From an uncultured Alphaproteobacteria bacterium (lineage in GTDB: Bacteria; Pseudomonadota; Alphaproteobacteria; Rs-D84): 35,812 nt of DNA. The stretch covers positions 67,390 through 103,201 of the forward strand of contig CALXMS010000001.1 of assembly GCA_944389535.1 (NCBI GenBank). Direction: 5' to 3'. This document shows positions 2,092-10,873 of this stretch, piece by piece. Every line of letters starts with the position of its first letter. The stretch's first letter is position 1. The translations under genes were made by a program, and so were the position numbers. The notes below the pieces were generated by a model. It had not been told where the DNA came from. It saw only the letters and a list, made by a program, of their open reading frames with translations, and did no database searches.

Positions 2092-3489
2092 TTATTGGAT
2101 ACCGACGCGGAACTCGTCACCCCATCCTGCTACGACCTGACCGCCGACAGAGCATTGAATGTCTTCAAACCCATTTTCTACTTGATTTTTCTTTACGACG
2201 TTACTCGTTATCAACCCACCTGCCGTCCCAAGAACGACTCCTGCAATGGAATCGGATAGCAGACGAGAGGTATTAAAATTACCTTCTTTATTACGCCAAA
2301 CAGTTAATTTTAAACCAGAACTTATTTCGTCTAATTCAGATATAGCACTTGATATCTTTTCCTTTGCTTGGGACTGATTTATTGACAACTGTGCATCCGT
2401 AGTCAAAACACATTCTGTACGCGCCTCATTTATTTCCATATTTTTATCATTACATACACATTCATTATTAAGCCACTGTGCTCCATTAATATGTCGGCAT
2501 TCATCAATTTTCGGGTTAAGTTTACACATACCATCTATCCAAACATAATCTTGTGTCTGACACATACAATCATTATTGTACCAATATGCCCCAGATTCTT
2601 TACTAACCTCAGACTCGCATTGCATTTTCTTTTCCGCCAAATTAGTCAAATCACAGCGTTTATTTTCAGCATTATATGTATAGTCTGTATTATTTAAACA
2701 CACACACTTATTGTTTTCTAGACGTAAATTTTTAGTTTGATCGCACGTACATTTGTTGGTCGCCCATGTACCACCTGAAGTCTCACACTCTTTTTTACGT
2801 TGCTGATTAATATTTTCTTGTTGCTGACGGTTATCTTTTGCTATCGCGGCACTTGTTTTCTTACATCCATATACACCATCTGGCTCATAATCAGAATTTA
2901 TACATTCACAAGACTCACCATTTGCCGACAATTTTATATTCTTTGAAGAGCTGCAAGAACATTTACCATTCGCCCACGTACCACCACTATTTACACAAGC
3001 GGTCTTAGCCTCCCCAATAGATTCACACTTACAAATATTTGTTCTATCTGTAAGCAGCAATTGTGCCTTGCTACCGGTAGAAATTCCAACATTTCCACCA
3101 TTATCATCCATTATGTAATATCCATCAATTTGACTAGCTTCATCAGTAACTCTGCACTGCTGGGCATCACAATCAGCTATATCACTTATTTTCCACTCAA
3201 CCCACATCTGATCGCCCCTAGCAGCACAATAATATAGTTTCTGCTTTGACTCTGAGTTGCCCTTAAAATAATGGTCCGCTGGCATAAAAATCACCTGCCC
3301 CCCATCACAGTGTCCACGACCACATTCGTACGCATATTTTCCATCATAACGTGAAGAACTTTGATACAAATATTCGTCACTATTCTTTATTGCCCAACCG
3401 CTTAGTTCTTGCTCATCACACACAGCGACCGAAACAGAAGGACCTAAAATTCCCACCAAAAACAAAGAACAAAATAACAATTTTTTCAT
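2092..3489 (-). CDS. Exported protein with tandem cysteine-rich repeats
   Basis: I do not recognise a named family. Start chosen at 3489, where GGAGAAGAG precedes an ATG that opens a Sec signal peptide (MKKLLFCSLFLVGILG, cleavage near SVSVAVC); a longer in-frame ORF reaching 3645 has no such support. The 465-aa product has at least four modules with the pattern Cys, a short linker, G-[GA]-x-W-x-N-x(2)-C-x-C, then a further Cys pair. The first two are clear copies (CVNSGGTWANGKCSC and CETSGGTWATNKCTC); the third and fourth are more diverged. A Gln/Lys-rich linker separates copies one and two. Near the C-terminus lies a Gly/Ala/Val segment (AGVVLGTAGGLITSNVV) that could span or touch a membrane. 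The spacing recalls EGF-like disulfide modules, but that is a resemblance only. Likely periplasmic or surface-exposed. Confidence 0.75.
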   Translation of the reverse strand: MKKLLFCSLFLVGILGPSVSVAVCDEQELSGWAIKNSDEYLYQSSSRYDGKYAYECGRGHCDGGQVIFMPADHYFKGNSESKQKLYYCAARGDQMWVEWKISDIADCDAQQCRVTDEASQIDGYYIMDDNGGNVGISTGSKAQLLLTDRTNICKCESIGEAKTACVNSGGTWANGKCSCSSSKNIKLSANGESCECINSDYEPDGVYGCKKTSAAIAKDNRQQQENINQQRKKECETSGGTWATNKCTCDQTKNLRLENNKCVCLNNTDYTYNAENKRCDLTNLAEKKMQCESEVSKESGAYWYNNDCMCQTQDYVWIDGMCKLNPKIDECRHINGAQWLNNECVCNDKNMEINEARTECVLTTDAQLSINQSQAKEKISSAISELDEISSGLKLTVWRNKEGNFNTSRLLSDSIAGVVLGTAGGLITSNVVKKNQVENGFEDIQCSVGGQVVAGWGDEFRVGIQ

Positions 3490-3538
3490 ATCTCTTCTCC
3501 ATTCATAATGCGTACACGCACCATAATTATTACTTATG

Positions 3539-3567
3539 ATTTTACCATAATTTCTAACTATTTCCAA
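3539..3567 (-). promoter_or_regulatory. Candidate promoter of the Cys-repeat gene
   Basis: On the minus strand TTGGAA (3567-3562) is separated by 17 bp from TAAAAT (3544-3539). It would give a leader of roughly 40 nt before the ATG at 3489. Identified by motif and spacing only. Confidence 0.45.
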
Positions 3568-3587
3568 TAAGGAATTAAAACTTCTCA

Positions 3588-3614
3588 ATAAAAAAGTGCC
3601 ACTTTTCGTGGCAT
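3588..3614 (-). terminator. Terminator of dnaA
   Basis: Stem TGCCAC/GTGGCA (3597-3602 with 3608-3613), 5-nt loop, followed on the minus strand by a T-rich run (complement of 3588-3595). It lies directly downstream of the dnaA stop codon. Confidence 0.7.
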
Positions 3615-3628
3615 AAATCTTTATTATC

Positions 3629-4909
3629 TTATCTGCAATCTGCAATCAATTGATTCATCTGTGCAGCCAAAACCAAATCTGTCTTCTTCAACTTTTCAAT
3701 CTGTGATAAAGCATAAACGACTGTCGCATGATCACGATCCCCACATACACGACCTATTTCCGTCAAAGATAAGTTTGTCACCTCTTTTAATACCGCCATC
3801 ATCATCTGGCGCGCCAACACAACCCCGCGACAACGTCCCTTCCCACATACTGCATCATACGCAACGCCCAACTTTTCACACATTGATTTTACCATTGCAA
3901 TCGGGGTTCTTGCCTTTTTTAAAGTATCCGCTAACAAGTGTTCTGCTATATCCATAGTGACAGACTGACCCATTAGTTCAACGTAAGTCTTTATTTTCAT
4001 CGCGACACCACCAACTAAATGACCATCGCATGAAACACGAGAAGATATCGCATCTGCAACATCCGACGCAACACCAGCACGCATTAGCATAACACGCTTT
4101 ACATTCGTCGTCGGTGCCGCAACGTCCGCAACCAACCCAGATGCTAATAAAGACTGTAAACGACGATCAAAACCATTTAAGTTACTTGGTGCAACGTTTG
4201 CAGTTAAAACGATATTTTTACCCGCGGCACGCAAATCCATTAATAACTGCGCAAATTCTTCACAGGTTGCGCGTTTACCAGCCAAAGCTTGAACATCATC
4301 TAAAATGAAAGTATCACAATTACGACAAAAATCTTTAAATGCAAATATTGTTCTATCGTGCAAACTACGAGTAAATTCTGATACAAATTGCCCGCCAGAC
4401 ATTTTTATAACCCGCCCCGATGTAGAATCTTCTATGCAGTCTACTAATAAAGATTTACCGCAACCAGATGCACCATAAATGAACAACGGCGAGAAAGATA
4501 CTGAACCCGCCGCTATTTTTTTACAAGCCGATAAAACAAAGGCATTTTCATCACAACATACAAATGTATCAAAACCGTTTACCACACCCGCTTGTTCAAC
4601 TGTTTTTACAGGGGCATACGACTGAACATTATTATCATTTGCAACAGAAGACTTAACGTTTGCCCCACGAACACAAATTACCAGGTTTAATCCGAATTGT
4701 GCCGCAATTGAAGATAAAACATTTTTATGAACGCTTCCTATGAAATCAGCAGAAAATTGATTTTGCGCCGTCAGCACTAAATCACCGTTACAAACATTGA
4801 ACTGCAACGGAGCAATCCAAGAAGAAAAACTTGCAGAATCCATTTTTGCGGCTATGGCCCCCTTGATTTGTTCCAAGTCAGTCATTTTTATTGTCGCCGC
4901 TGCCTGCAT
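3629..4909 (-). CDS. dnaA: Chromosomal replication initiator DnaA, divergent
   Basis: Start set at the ATG at 4909 because AAAGGAG sits just upstream; a longer reading frame from 4948 lacks this. The 426-aa protein has a short domain I (about 8-80), a short linker, an AAA+ domain and a C-terminal DnaA helix-turn-helix domain (about 341-426). Walker A is GASGCGKS (146-153) and Walker B is FILDDVQ (201-207). Domain IV keeps the signature region as GDRDHATVVYAL (about 390-401). Several positions are unusual when aligned by eye to E. coli DnaA. The arginine-finger position (R285, in RLKSRFGWG) is L254 in RLQSLLASG. The sensor-2 Arg of the RELEGAL motif is H297. The base-contacting Thr of RDHTT is A395. 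Domain IV argues against Hda or another AAA+ protein. Flanked by a palindrome-rich gap upstream and its own terminator downstream. Confidence 0.88.
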   Translation of the reverse strand: MQAAATIKMTDLEQIKGAIAAKMDSASFSSWIAPLQFNVCNGDLVLTAQNQFSADFIGSVHKNVLSSIAAQFGLNLVICVRGANVKSSVANDNNVQSYAPVKTVEQAGVVNGFDTFVCCDENAFVLSACKKIAAGSVSFSPLFIYGASGCGKSLLVDCIEDSTSGRVIKMSGGQFVSEFTRSLHDRTIFAFKDFCRNCDTFILDDVQALAGKRATCEEFAQLLMDLRAAGKNIVLTANVAPSNLNGFDRRLQSLLASGLVADVAAPTTNVKRVMLMRAGVASDVADAISSRVSCDGHLVGGVAMKIKTYVELMGQSVTMDIAEHLLADTLKKARTPIAMVKSMCEKLGVAYDAVCGKGRCRGVVLARQMMMAVLKEVTNLSLTEIGRVCGDRDHATVVYALSQIEKLKKTDLVLAAQMNQLIADCR

Positions 4910-4974
4910 ATGTTTCTCCTTTCCTTCCCTAAAAGAGTTACCCGTCACCGCGCAAGAGTATAAAAATCACCCGC

Positions 4975-8301: not shown

Positions 8302-9930
8302 TTAATTTAAAGGTGCACCCCAATGTTGTTGTATTGTACGTTCTGCATCCATCGGACTTACCAATACTTGAGGCGTTAATATTACAACCAACACGTCACG
8401 CGTAGCCGAAGTCTCGCGAGAACCAGATAAAGCCATAAAGTCTGGATCACCTAAACCATAGCGCGTATCATTATTAGTCTGCTTTTCAAAACCAGATACA
8501 ACCAACATCTGACCTGATTCCATAATTACTTCTTGCATGAAACTACGTTCTTCAACTTCTGGTAACTGTAAAGTGACCTCACCTATTGTCTGAGTAGACA
8601 TCTTTAACAATTCACGAATCGACATTCTAAACAGCAACAATATTTTACCGTTTTCCAGAACATTAGGTAATAATTGCATAGAGAACCCTGTTTCCAAATC
8701 ATCCTGATCAACGGTGCTTGATTCAACTGTCGTAAAGTTCCGAGATTCAAAACGCTTAATATATCCTGTTGTCTTTGTGTTGTTTACAGGTGCAACCCTA
8801 TTACTACGCGTTGTTACACCAACGTTTGTTACTAAAGACACCTTACCCTGCTTTGCCAAAGCCTGAATCAGCGCATCTGTACCGGCTAGTCCAGATAAAG
8901 AACCATTTTGAATTTGATCTTGAGTATAGGCCCCGGCAACAGTAGACGTACCCTCAGTATGAGTAGCCCCCGTCATACCAGACACAGTATTAGACAGAAC
9001 TGCAATATTCATTGAGCTAGCCTCTGTACTTGTTAAATTATTCTTAGGGTTAGCAACGATGTTCAAACCAGATGCAGAATTTATAGCTGCAGCAAGGTTT
9101 AATCCAAACGCAGAATCATTAGATATAGAAACCTGTAATACCTTTACGTCAATAGTAACCAATTGGGACAGACGTTTATTCTGTCTGTCTATATAATCAG
9201 CAACGCGCGCCAACGTTGACGGAGGTGCCGTTACTGTTATCGTACCTAAACTACGAGAAACAGTAAAAGTAGCATTATCAACTTCACCGGTAATTGTCGC
9301 TATGGCGTTTTCAATTTCATCCCATTCTTTCAACGTAGATTCCAGCGAAACAGTATTACCGCTGTCGGTTTCAACGGCAGTTTGATAAGATACGTCTGTT
9401 CCTAATGCATACAACGTAAAGGTTTTTGTTTCCGTTTCATAAAAAACTATTGAAGTTTTATCATAATACCACAATAAATCTAAATCCGTTGCAACTTGGG
9501 ACAATAAGCCAGACAAACTACCTGTATAAGCGATATTAATATTTTTCTTTAACTTTTCAGAATTTATTTGATTATCTATCTTTACTGGGATACCCGTTAT
9601 TGATGTAATATTATTTGCCAAAACGTTCAAAGTAACAGGTTCATCTAATAATATTGTGATACCAGTACTTGATTCAAACTGAGAAGGTAAATTATTACGG
9701 TGTGCCAACAAAGTAGAAGAAGAGCCTAGCCATACCCCTTCAGACATAGATACGGTATCACCACTGGCTACCTTAGCTGGTGGATTTTTAGACATCTCAA
9801 AAGCATCATAAGCATTTATAAAATCTTGATCGACAGATGCCGCAACTTTGGCCGATTCCTTTGTGGCACATCCTGTGAACATCACACCACAAAGCACGCA
9901 CATAATAAACATTTTTATCGGTTTGGTCAT
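8302..9930 (-). CDS. PilN-family type IVb pilus lipoprotein secretin
   Basis: Forms the outer-membrane gate of a type IVb pilus-like system. The 542-aa protein has a lipoprotein signal with the lipid-attached Cys at C21 (GVMFTGC). N-terminal ring domains follow: an STN-like segment with LLDEPVTLNVLANNI and a second domain around TATITVTAPPS-like sequence near 235. A C-terminal secretin domain covers about 265-530, with VTIDVKVLQVSIS at its start and LPEVEERSFMQEVIMESGQMLVVSG plus VLVVILTPQVLVSP near its end (quoted in part). The Ser/Thr-rich insert is typical of the R64 PilN / BfpB group. TAGGAGAAAA precedes the ATG. It follows the TcpQ-domain gene with 34 bp between them, an arrangement known from type IVb pilus loci. 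No pilin, ATPase or platform gene is in the window. Confidence 0.85.
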   Translation of the reverse strand: MTKPIKMFIMCVLCGVMFTGCATKESAKVAASVDQDFINAYDAFEMSKNPPAKVASGDTVSMSEGVWLGSSSTLLAHRNNLPSQFESSTGITILLDEPVTLNVLANNITSITGIPVKIDNQINSEKLKKNINIAYTGSLSGLLSQVATDLDLLWYYDKTSIVFYETETKTFTLYALGTDVSYQTAVETDSGNTVSLESTLKEWDEIENAIATITGEVDNATFTVSRSLGTITVTAPPSTLARVADYIDRQNKRLSQLVTIDVKVLQVSISNDSAFGLNLAAAINSASGLNIVANPKNNLTSTEASSMNIAVLSNTVSGMTGATHTEGTSTVAGAYTQDQIQNGSLSGLAGTDALIQALAKQGKVSLVTNVGVTTRSNRVAPVNNTKTTGYIKRFESRNFTTVESSTVDQDDLETGFSMQLLPNVLENGKILLLFRMSIRELLKMSTQTIGEVTLQLPEVEERSFMQEVIMESGQMLVVSGFEKQTNNDTRYGLGDPDFMALSGSRETSATRDVLVVILTPQVLVSPMDAERTIQQHWGAPLN

Positions 9931-9964
9931 TTTAATTTTCTCCTACGGCAAACGAAACGACTAT

Positions 9965-10873
9965 TTATTCTTCTGATGTGGACACAACCAGAACGCGATT
10001 TCCTTTATAGAATTTTGCGTATGGTATTGGTGTTGCCCTTGCAAAGTTACGCACCAGCGCAGATGCGACATCAACGAAGCGTCCTTTAAAGACGGCACTG
10101 GCTTCAATAGGATATTCTCTAGAAGTAGCCCAGACTAGGTCCCAACCTTCTTTATTGCACCAATCTTGTAATACTTCACGTAACGTTTGTCCATTGGCGA
10201 CAACCCAAGAACGAACCTGATCTGTTAAAGTTGCCGGAGCTTCAGCATCTGCAGATACGTCAACAGCAATTTCTGCGTCCAATGCTTCGTTTGCTTCATT
10301 AACTGCCGCGATTTCTTCATCGCTCATACCCACTTTGGCCATAAACGCTTCGTAACCGTCACGATATTGATTACAATCTTGTCTGCTGCTACGAGATACC
10401 GCCAAAACGCTTCCACCATCATCTTCTAACATTTCTCGACTTAATAACGGCATTTCGGCACCGCTATTACACGGATCATCAAAACCAGCAGGAACTTGCA
10501 TACCGTGCAGCATATTTGCACCACCAGACCAGCCACCAAAATCAGAATTACCAGTTCTTCCTAAATTAAAATTATTTTCAACGACTAAGTCAGAACCAAT
10601 TTTTGAAACTATGCGAATATTGTCATCTTGACTACCAGAACAAGCGCTATCTTCACAAGCAACGGTAACGTCTGCATCAGATCCGGCAATCGGCCATACG
10701 GGAACTTCCTGTTGAGAAATACCTGTGTCGTATTCAACGCTTTGCGTTTCTGTAACAACAGGTTCCTGAGAATAATAAACTTCTGACGTTACAATTTGCG
10801 GTAACGTCTCTGCGGCAAAGCAATACCCTGCGGCAGTAGCAAACATAGCAACTATGAAAAATTTACGGAACAT
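9965..10873 (-). CDS. Exported protein with C-terminal TcpQ-type domain
   Basis: The 302-aa protein has a Sec signal peptide (MFRKFFIVAMFATAAGYCFA) and a low-complexity acidic middle. Its C-terminal domain of about 80 residues (about 220-300, around WVVANGQTLREVLQDWC and a final KGNRVLVVST) resembles the toxin co-regulated pilus protein Q / PilL C-terminal family. TcpQ-type proteins help the cognate secretin reach or stabilise in the outer membrane, and the secretin gene is next in the same operon. AGGAAGT precedes the ATG. Promoter elements with a CTTGCA -35 lie upstream. The central region (residues 40-215), with several Cys and Gly-rich stretches, matches nothing I know. Confidence 0.8.
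   Translation of the reverse strand: MFRKFFIVAMFATAAGYCFAAETLPQIVTSEVYYSQEPVVTETQSVEYDTGISQQEVPVWPIAGSDADVTVACEDSACSGSQDDNIRIVSKIGSDLVVENNFNLGRTGNSDFGGWSGGANMLHGMQVPAGFDDPCNSGAEMPLLSREMLEDDGGSVLAVSRSSRQDCNQYRDGYEAFMAKVGMSDEEIAAVNEANEALDAEIAVDVSADAEAPATLTDQVRSWVVANGQTLREVLQDWCNKEGWDLVWATSREYPIEASAVFKGRFVDVASALVRNFARATPIPYAKFYKGNRVLVVSTSEE

Follow-up and report, generated by a model that had tools for sequence, protein, structure and literature searches.

The window analysed here is a 35,812-nucleotide stretch from the genome of a Candidatus Enterousia bacterium (order Rs-D84, Alphaproteobacteria) that carries dnaA on its minus strand at 3629-4909. The gene lies within an ORF spanning 3629-4948 (-), starts at the ATG at 4907-4909 and encodes a 426-aa protein in which three Pfam domains follow one another in order, all above curated cut-offs: domain I (DnaA_N, residues 13-61, 4727..4873, E=1.7e-07), the domain III AAA+ ATPase (Bac_DnaA, residues 111-261, 4127..4579, E=1.5e-30) and the domain IV helix-turn-helix (Bac_DnaA_C, residues 340-404, 3698..3892, E=3.5e-17). 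The structure was predicted as a monomer (mean pLDDT 83, pTM 0.61), and trans contacts therefore lie outside its reach. The predicted domain III superimposes on solved DnaA domain III structures with TM-scores of 0.86-0.87 depending on the target, and the fold matches are headed by 8btg, 1l8q and 3r8f. The genome from which the window comes is 882 kb long and 98.8% complete, and among named taxa it is closest to the gut bacteria Candidatus Enterousia; reduced genomes are general across order Rs-D84 (PMC12306168). Directly 3' of dnaA, a 517-aa ORF at 2092-3645 (-) without a Pfam match overlaps the dnaA stop by 17 bases as called. Elsewhere in the window, a secretin adjoins a TcpQ-like pilus protein (8302-10873, -), which suggests a pilus or secretion system in this sub-megabase gut bacterium.

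Aligned by MAFFT to the DnaA of E. coli K-12, the protein shows three replacements. Leu254 (4148..4150) occupies the position of the arginine finger R285, His297 (4019..4021) that of the sensor-2 arginine R334, and Ala395 (3725..3727) that of the base-contacting T435, changing RDHTT to RDHAT. Alignment with B. subtilis DnaA (8btg) by phmmer also places a leucine at the finger position (LEDRLRSRF against FDRRLQSLL) and agrees on His297. These assignments bear out those made by hand in the original prediction, and neither program places another arginine at the finger position. The ATPase core is intact by sequence, again as first proposed, with a Walker A motif GASGCGKS containing Lys152 (4454..4456; E. 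coli K178) and a Walker B motif ILDD containing Asp204-Asp205 (4295..4300; E. coli D235/D236). The equivalent of R399 is also kept; it is R359 rather than R361 as previously assigned, the latter aligning to R401.

To place these changes in context, we relied on an alignment of 134 DnaA sequences from one family, hereafter family f1, of which 119 are distinct and which cover Enterousia as well as 12 further genera, and on 12 sequences from sister families, the residue survey being confined to order Rs-D84. Position 285 is Leu, Val or Ile in all 119 distinct family sequences and Arg in none. At position 334, 118/119 have His, and Ala occupies position 435 in each of the 118 sequences that reach it. 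In the sister families, R285 is found in 11/12 sequences, R334 in 9/12 and A435 in 10/12. Since the substitutions are fixed across the family, they are neither error nor chance, and close relatives with the normal residues, named beforehand as a sign of sequencing error, did not turn up. The Walker A lysine is invariant (119/119), the two Walker B aspartates are present in 119/119 and 116/119, and dN/dS between close relatives is 0.06-0.18, indicative of purifying selection. Decay is therefore ruled out, as are a sequencing error and a pseudogene, and by these sequence criteria the family DnaA is a constrained, working protein. Assembly through domain III-domain III contacts in E. coli needs R285, R227, L290, R281 and K243 (PMC5742627), and the filament-contact residues other than the finger are kept in the family (R227, 116/119; K243, 119/119; R281, 105/119; L290, 116/119). 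Further changes affect sensor 1, where D269 is Asn in 91/119 sequences, and the ssDNA-binding H/B-motif residues known from E. coli, V211 and R245, both of which are altered.

The substitutions had been treated as one set. All are real, but their ages differ, as T435A is common to the sister families whereas the R285 and R334H changes are specific to family f1. Because the family forms a single clade in the DnaA tree (support 100/100), the loss of the finger and the sensor-2 change would most simply date to the family stem, with T435A being older. The stem branch is long, and it might be argued that these positions simply drifted in a reduced genome, with compensations elsewhere, so that a conventional ATP-DnaA cycle persists and the replacements have little functional meaning. 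The generality of genome reduction in Rs-D84 fits such ordinary divergence, as does the loss of single key residues in some sister lineages, namely E285/K334 in G040, G334 in G047 and A334 in G052. We nevertheless consider it quite unlikely, given that His334 is nearly invariant in a protein under purifying selection and that the changes coincide with a missing Hda and a changed DnaA box, as described below.

How the loss at position 254 should be interpreted depends in part on Arg249-Arg250 (4160..4165; E. coli 280/281), located one turn upstream in the same helix and comprising the conserved box VII Arg281 and a second, family-specific arginine. An Arg has taken the place of Asp/Glu at position 280 in 106/119 family sequences, and 118/119 have Arg or Lys at one or more of positions 280 and 281. 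In the sister families, position 280 is mostly Asp, Glu, Ala or Ser (9/12), and Arg281 occurs in 0/12. Furthermore, residues 249-255, including the finger position, form one helix in the monomer model, with residues 250 and 254 sharing a face. Along with the invariant Walker motifs, these observations favor the main rival to the reading developed below, in which Arg249 and/or Arg250 would act as a relocated finger contacting the neighbor's gamma-phosphate, such that ATP-dependent assembly is kept and only hydrolysis is lost. We regard a relocated finger as rather unlikely: R281 of E. coli stabilizes the filament and represses the ATPase and is not a finger (PMC5742627), position 280 is His in 11/119 family sequences, and a monomer model cannot place the nucleotide of a neighboring subunit.

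The original prediction held that this lineage either initiates replication differently or has a second DnaA. The second half can be set aside, as searches of the 98.8%-complete genome with profiles for the ATPase and DNA-binding domains found only the gene in the window, which is thus the sole DnaA gene found. A weak second match to the ATPase profile (PF00308) reads as RuvB. The first half, that initiation may differ, is supported by the family-wide replacement of the residues that sense and hydrolyze ATP, by the undetected Hda and by the changed box of the probable origin.

Hda drives the hydrolysis of DnaA-bound ATP and is the factor of RIDA. A full-length match of Hda size was found in 0/34 Enterousia genomes by profile search, which a distant Hda could escape; the genome of the window likewise gave none. 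Full-length matches of this size (E about 1e-30, 229-254 aa) came from six genomes of g4, a sister genus within the order, and the five of these genomes with an aligned DnaA all keep both R334 and R285 (5/5). No Hda-size match was seen in G047 (Gly334), G052 (Ala334) or G040 (Lys334), three independent losses of R334. The absence of Hda appears to track the loss of R334, as a correlation across few and partly incomplete genomes. The DnaA of G040 (locus L050, sister family f2) is an independent case, with Glu at the finger position, Lys at sensor 2 and a long branch, and this lineage may have lost the ATP switch in parallel. Of the three marks of an ATP-switch DnaA, the arginine finger (R285) and the sensor-2 arginine (R334) are thus replaced in family f1, and Hda-driven inactivation has no detected factor in the 34 Enterousia genomes.

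The closed chromosome of Ca. E. intestinigallinarum (1,001,484 bp) was used to locate the origin. Its cumulative TA skew is lowest at 600 kb and highest at 105 kb, and its cumulative GC skew is lowest at 642 kb and highest at 124 kb. At 597 kb, the 508-bp gap (71% AT) that separates rpmJ from a virB3-virB4 pair (all three genes named by sequence resemblance) contains the densest cluster of TTTTCAAC in this genome, with six copies in 400 bp; elsewhere a 250-bp scan found at most two. The counterpart of this locus in the genome of the window lies on contig C1 at 206.3-207.1 kb, outside the window and on a skew plateau, with the skew minima of that contig at 198.7 kb (TA) and 234.7 kb (GC). In these two genomes, the rpmJ/virB3 region is 3-8 kb from the TA-skew minimum and 28-45 kb from the GC-skew minimum, and in the closed chromosome it is about half a genome away from the skew maxima. 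We conclude that the rpmJ/virB3 intergenic region, with six non-canonical TTTTCAACA boxes, is likely oriC (G000:C1:206258-207000; L194; L164:17033-17541). This call rests on skew and conserved boxes, and the box array overlaps the probable promoters of the two flanking genes. Other candidates were rejected. An origin adjoining dnaA was dismissed, dnaA being about 135 kb away on the window's own contig and 150 kb away in the closed chromosome, and the repeats clustered at 636 kb in the latter proved to be a tRNA followed by a duplicated element.

Up to six box positions are conserved in the rpmJ/virB3 region of 28 Enterousia species, in mixed orientation and separated by steps near 34, 44, 28, 18 and 43 bp. 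Across these species the region contains 109 exact copies of TTTTCAACA and no copy of TTATNCACA, TTTTCCACA or TTTTTCACA. The canonical TTATNCACA box forms no cluster genome-wide, and TTWTNCACA boxes are neither enriched (98 vs 93 for the reversed control) nor clustered in the genome of the window. At the probable origin of that genome, two sites are exact and three have one mismatch, the fourth site being weak. Among the base contacts that PMC7561715 lists for domain IV are P423, T435 and H439, which have become Thr/Ser/Ala, Ala and Tyr, respectively, in the family. These changes may be tied to the new box. Both Ala435 and Tyr439 are common in the sister families and so are older than family f1, unlike the loss of P423. 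The paired-box pattern matches 81/201 genomes of the order and almost none in the reversed control. A separate search of the sister families for box clusters gave no clear origin among the matches listed, and the dating given above therefore covers the protein changes. Sister genome G041 has a TTTTCAACA pair that falls within a coding frame, probably by chance. We also observed seven copies of TTTTCAACA in the 400-bp regions upstream of dnaA at 57 loci, vs about one expected from whole loci, and autoregulation in a few species is possible. None of the literature searched was found to describe TTTTCAACA as a DnaA box.

DnaA was found in 190/201 genomes of the order. In three genomes with an estimated completeness of 92-97% (G035, G196 and G076), neither the ATPase profile nor the DNA-binding profile matched a DnaA, reflecting an assembly gap or a real loss. 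Read as real, these absences, like the altered ssDNA-binding residues V211 and R245, would suit a DnaA that has ceded the main role in chromosomal initiation and acts, for example, as a transcription factor while another system starts replication. Gaps in draft assemblies are a simpler cause, however, and the near-universal presence of DnaA in the order and the conserved box array near the skew switch make such a change of role very improbable.

Our preferred reading, to which we assign a probability of roughly 55%, is that the family DnaA is the sole functional initiator and still binds ATP, has lost the means to read and hydrolyze it, and acts at an origin with nearly uniform boxes. The fixed changes at R285 and R334, the kept Walker and filament residues, the undetected Hda and the box array all speak for it; ATP binding, ATPase activity, oligomerization and box binding are here deduced from sequence. 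The same evidence does not separate this reading well from a relocated finger. Under the preferred reading, ATP would be bound by the family DnaA mainly as a structural ligand, and ATP/ADP cycling by hydrolysis would be absent. Protomers would assemble on DNA through the kept filament contacts without a finger-to-gamma-phosphate contact, guided by about six near-identical TTTTCAACA boxes and not by weak-site arrays to which binding is cooperative and ATP-specific. The timing of initiation would then be set by the amount of DnaA or another control rather than by RIDA. A bolder proposal, for which we would offer somewhat less than even odds, is that the whole family gave up the ATP/ADP switch of DnaA and adopted the new box TTTTCAACA, with the origin opening irrespective of the bound nucleotide and its timing independent of DnaA-ATP.

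So far, the question whether the ATP cycle of DnaA is essential or is one timing option among others has been approached in E. coli, through engineered mutants and origins. The present family, which comprises well over 100 species with both substitutions fixed, Hda undetected and the box changed, provides a natural evolutionary test. This tiny-genome gut family, with its probable origin built on a new word, suggests that replication can start without the usual ATP on/off switch, which bears on the shedding of cell-cycle control by bacteria with reduced genomes. The 426-aa protein and the probable origin of about 240 bp constitute a protein-DNA pair that can be made and assayed. Furthermore, origin finders keyed to TTATNCACA would miss such origins.

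The family DnaA shares with E. coli DnaA the domain order I-III-IV, the Walker A and B motifs, the AID residues R227 and L290, K243, box VII R281 and the DNA contacts R399, D433 and H434. In contrast, it lacks the finger R285, the sensor-2 R334, V211 and R245, usually has Asn instead of D269, has Thr, Ala and Tyr at base contacts P423, T435 and H439, and comes without a detected Hda in Enterousia. Its sensor-2 residue reproduces a known laboratory change. In E. coli, R334 is required for ATPase activity and RIDA and dispensable for initiation complexes, while R285 is essential for the intrinsic ATPase (PMC5742627). R334H abolishes the intrinsic ATPase of E. coli DnaA, and the equivalent R328H protein of Synechococcus works as the only DnaA and over-initiates (PMC6478999). 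These ATPase-dead, ATP-locked mutants carry a single change and keep the finger, whereas in the family the same Arg-to-His replacement is naturally fixed together with the loss of the finger.

In other bacteria, losing the switch comes at a cost: R285A is lethal in E. coli with its normal origin, and the Caulobacter sensor-2 alanine mutant R357A over-initiates and is unable to substitute for the wild-type protein (PMC3193534). A switch-less DnaA is nonetheless plausible because, as summarized in PMC6727663, the engineered origin oriC-allADP, which DnaA-ADP can use, suppresses the lethality of R285A. That pair combines a finger-less initiator with a nucleotide-blind origin, as we propose for the family; however, oriC-allADP is engineered and has canonical sites, whereas the family origin is natural and has TTTTCAACA boxes in mixed orientation. 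With variant boxes such as the epsilonproteobacterial TTCAC core and with E. coli TTWTNCACA, TTTTCAACA shares a 9-mer length, a T-rich 5' half, an ACA-like 3' end and clustering in an AT-rich intergenic region, and differs from them at position 6, where 147/147 aligned sites carry A in place of the C of the E. coli consensus. Finally, Hda-size matches (Hda/HdaA) occur in sister genus g4, and the gene in the window is distinct from them, encoding a full DnaA with domain IV.
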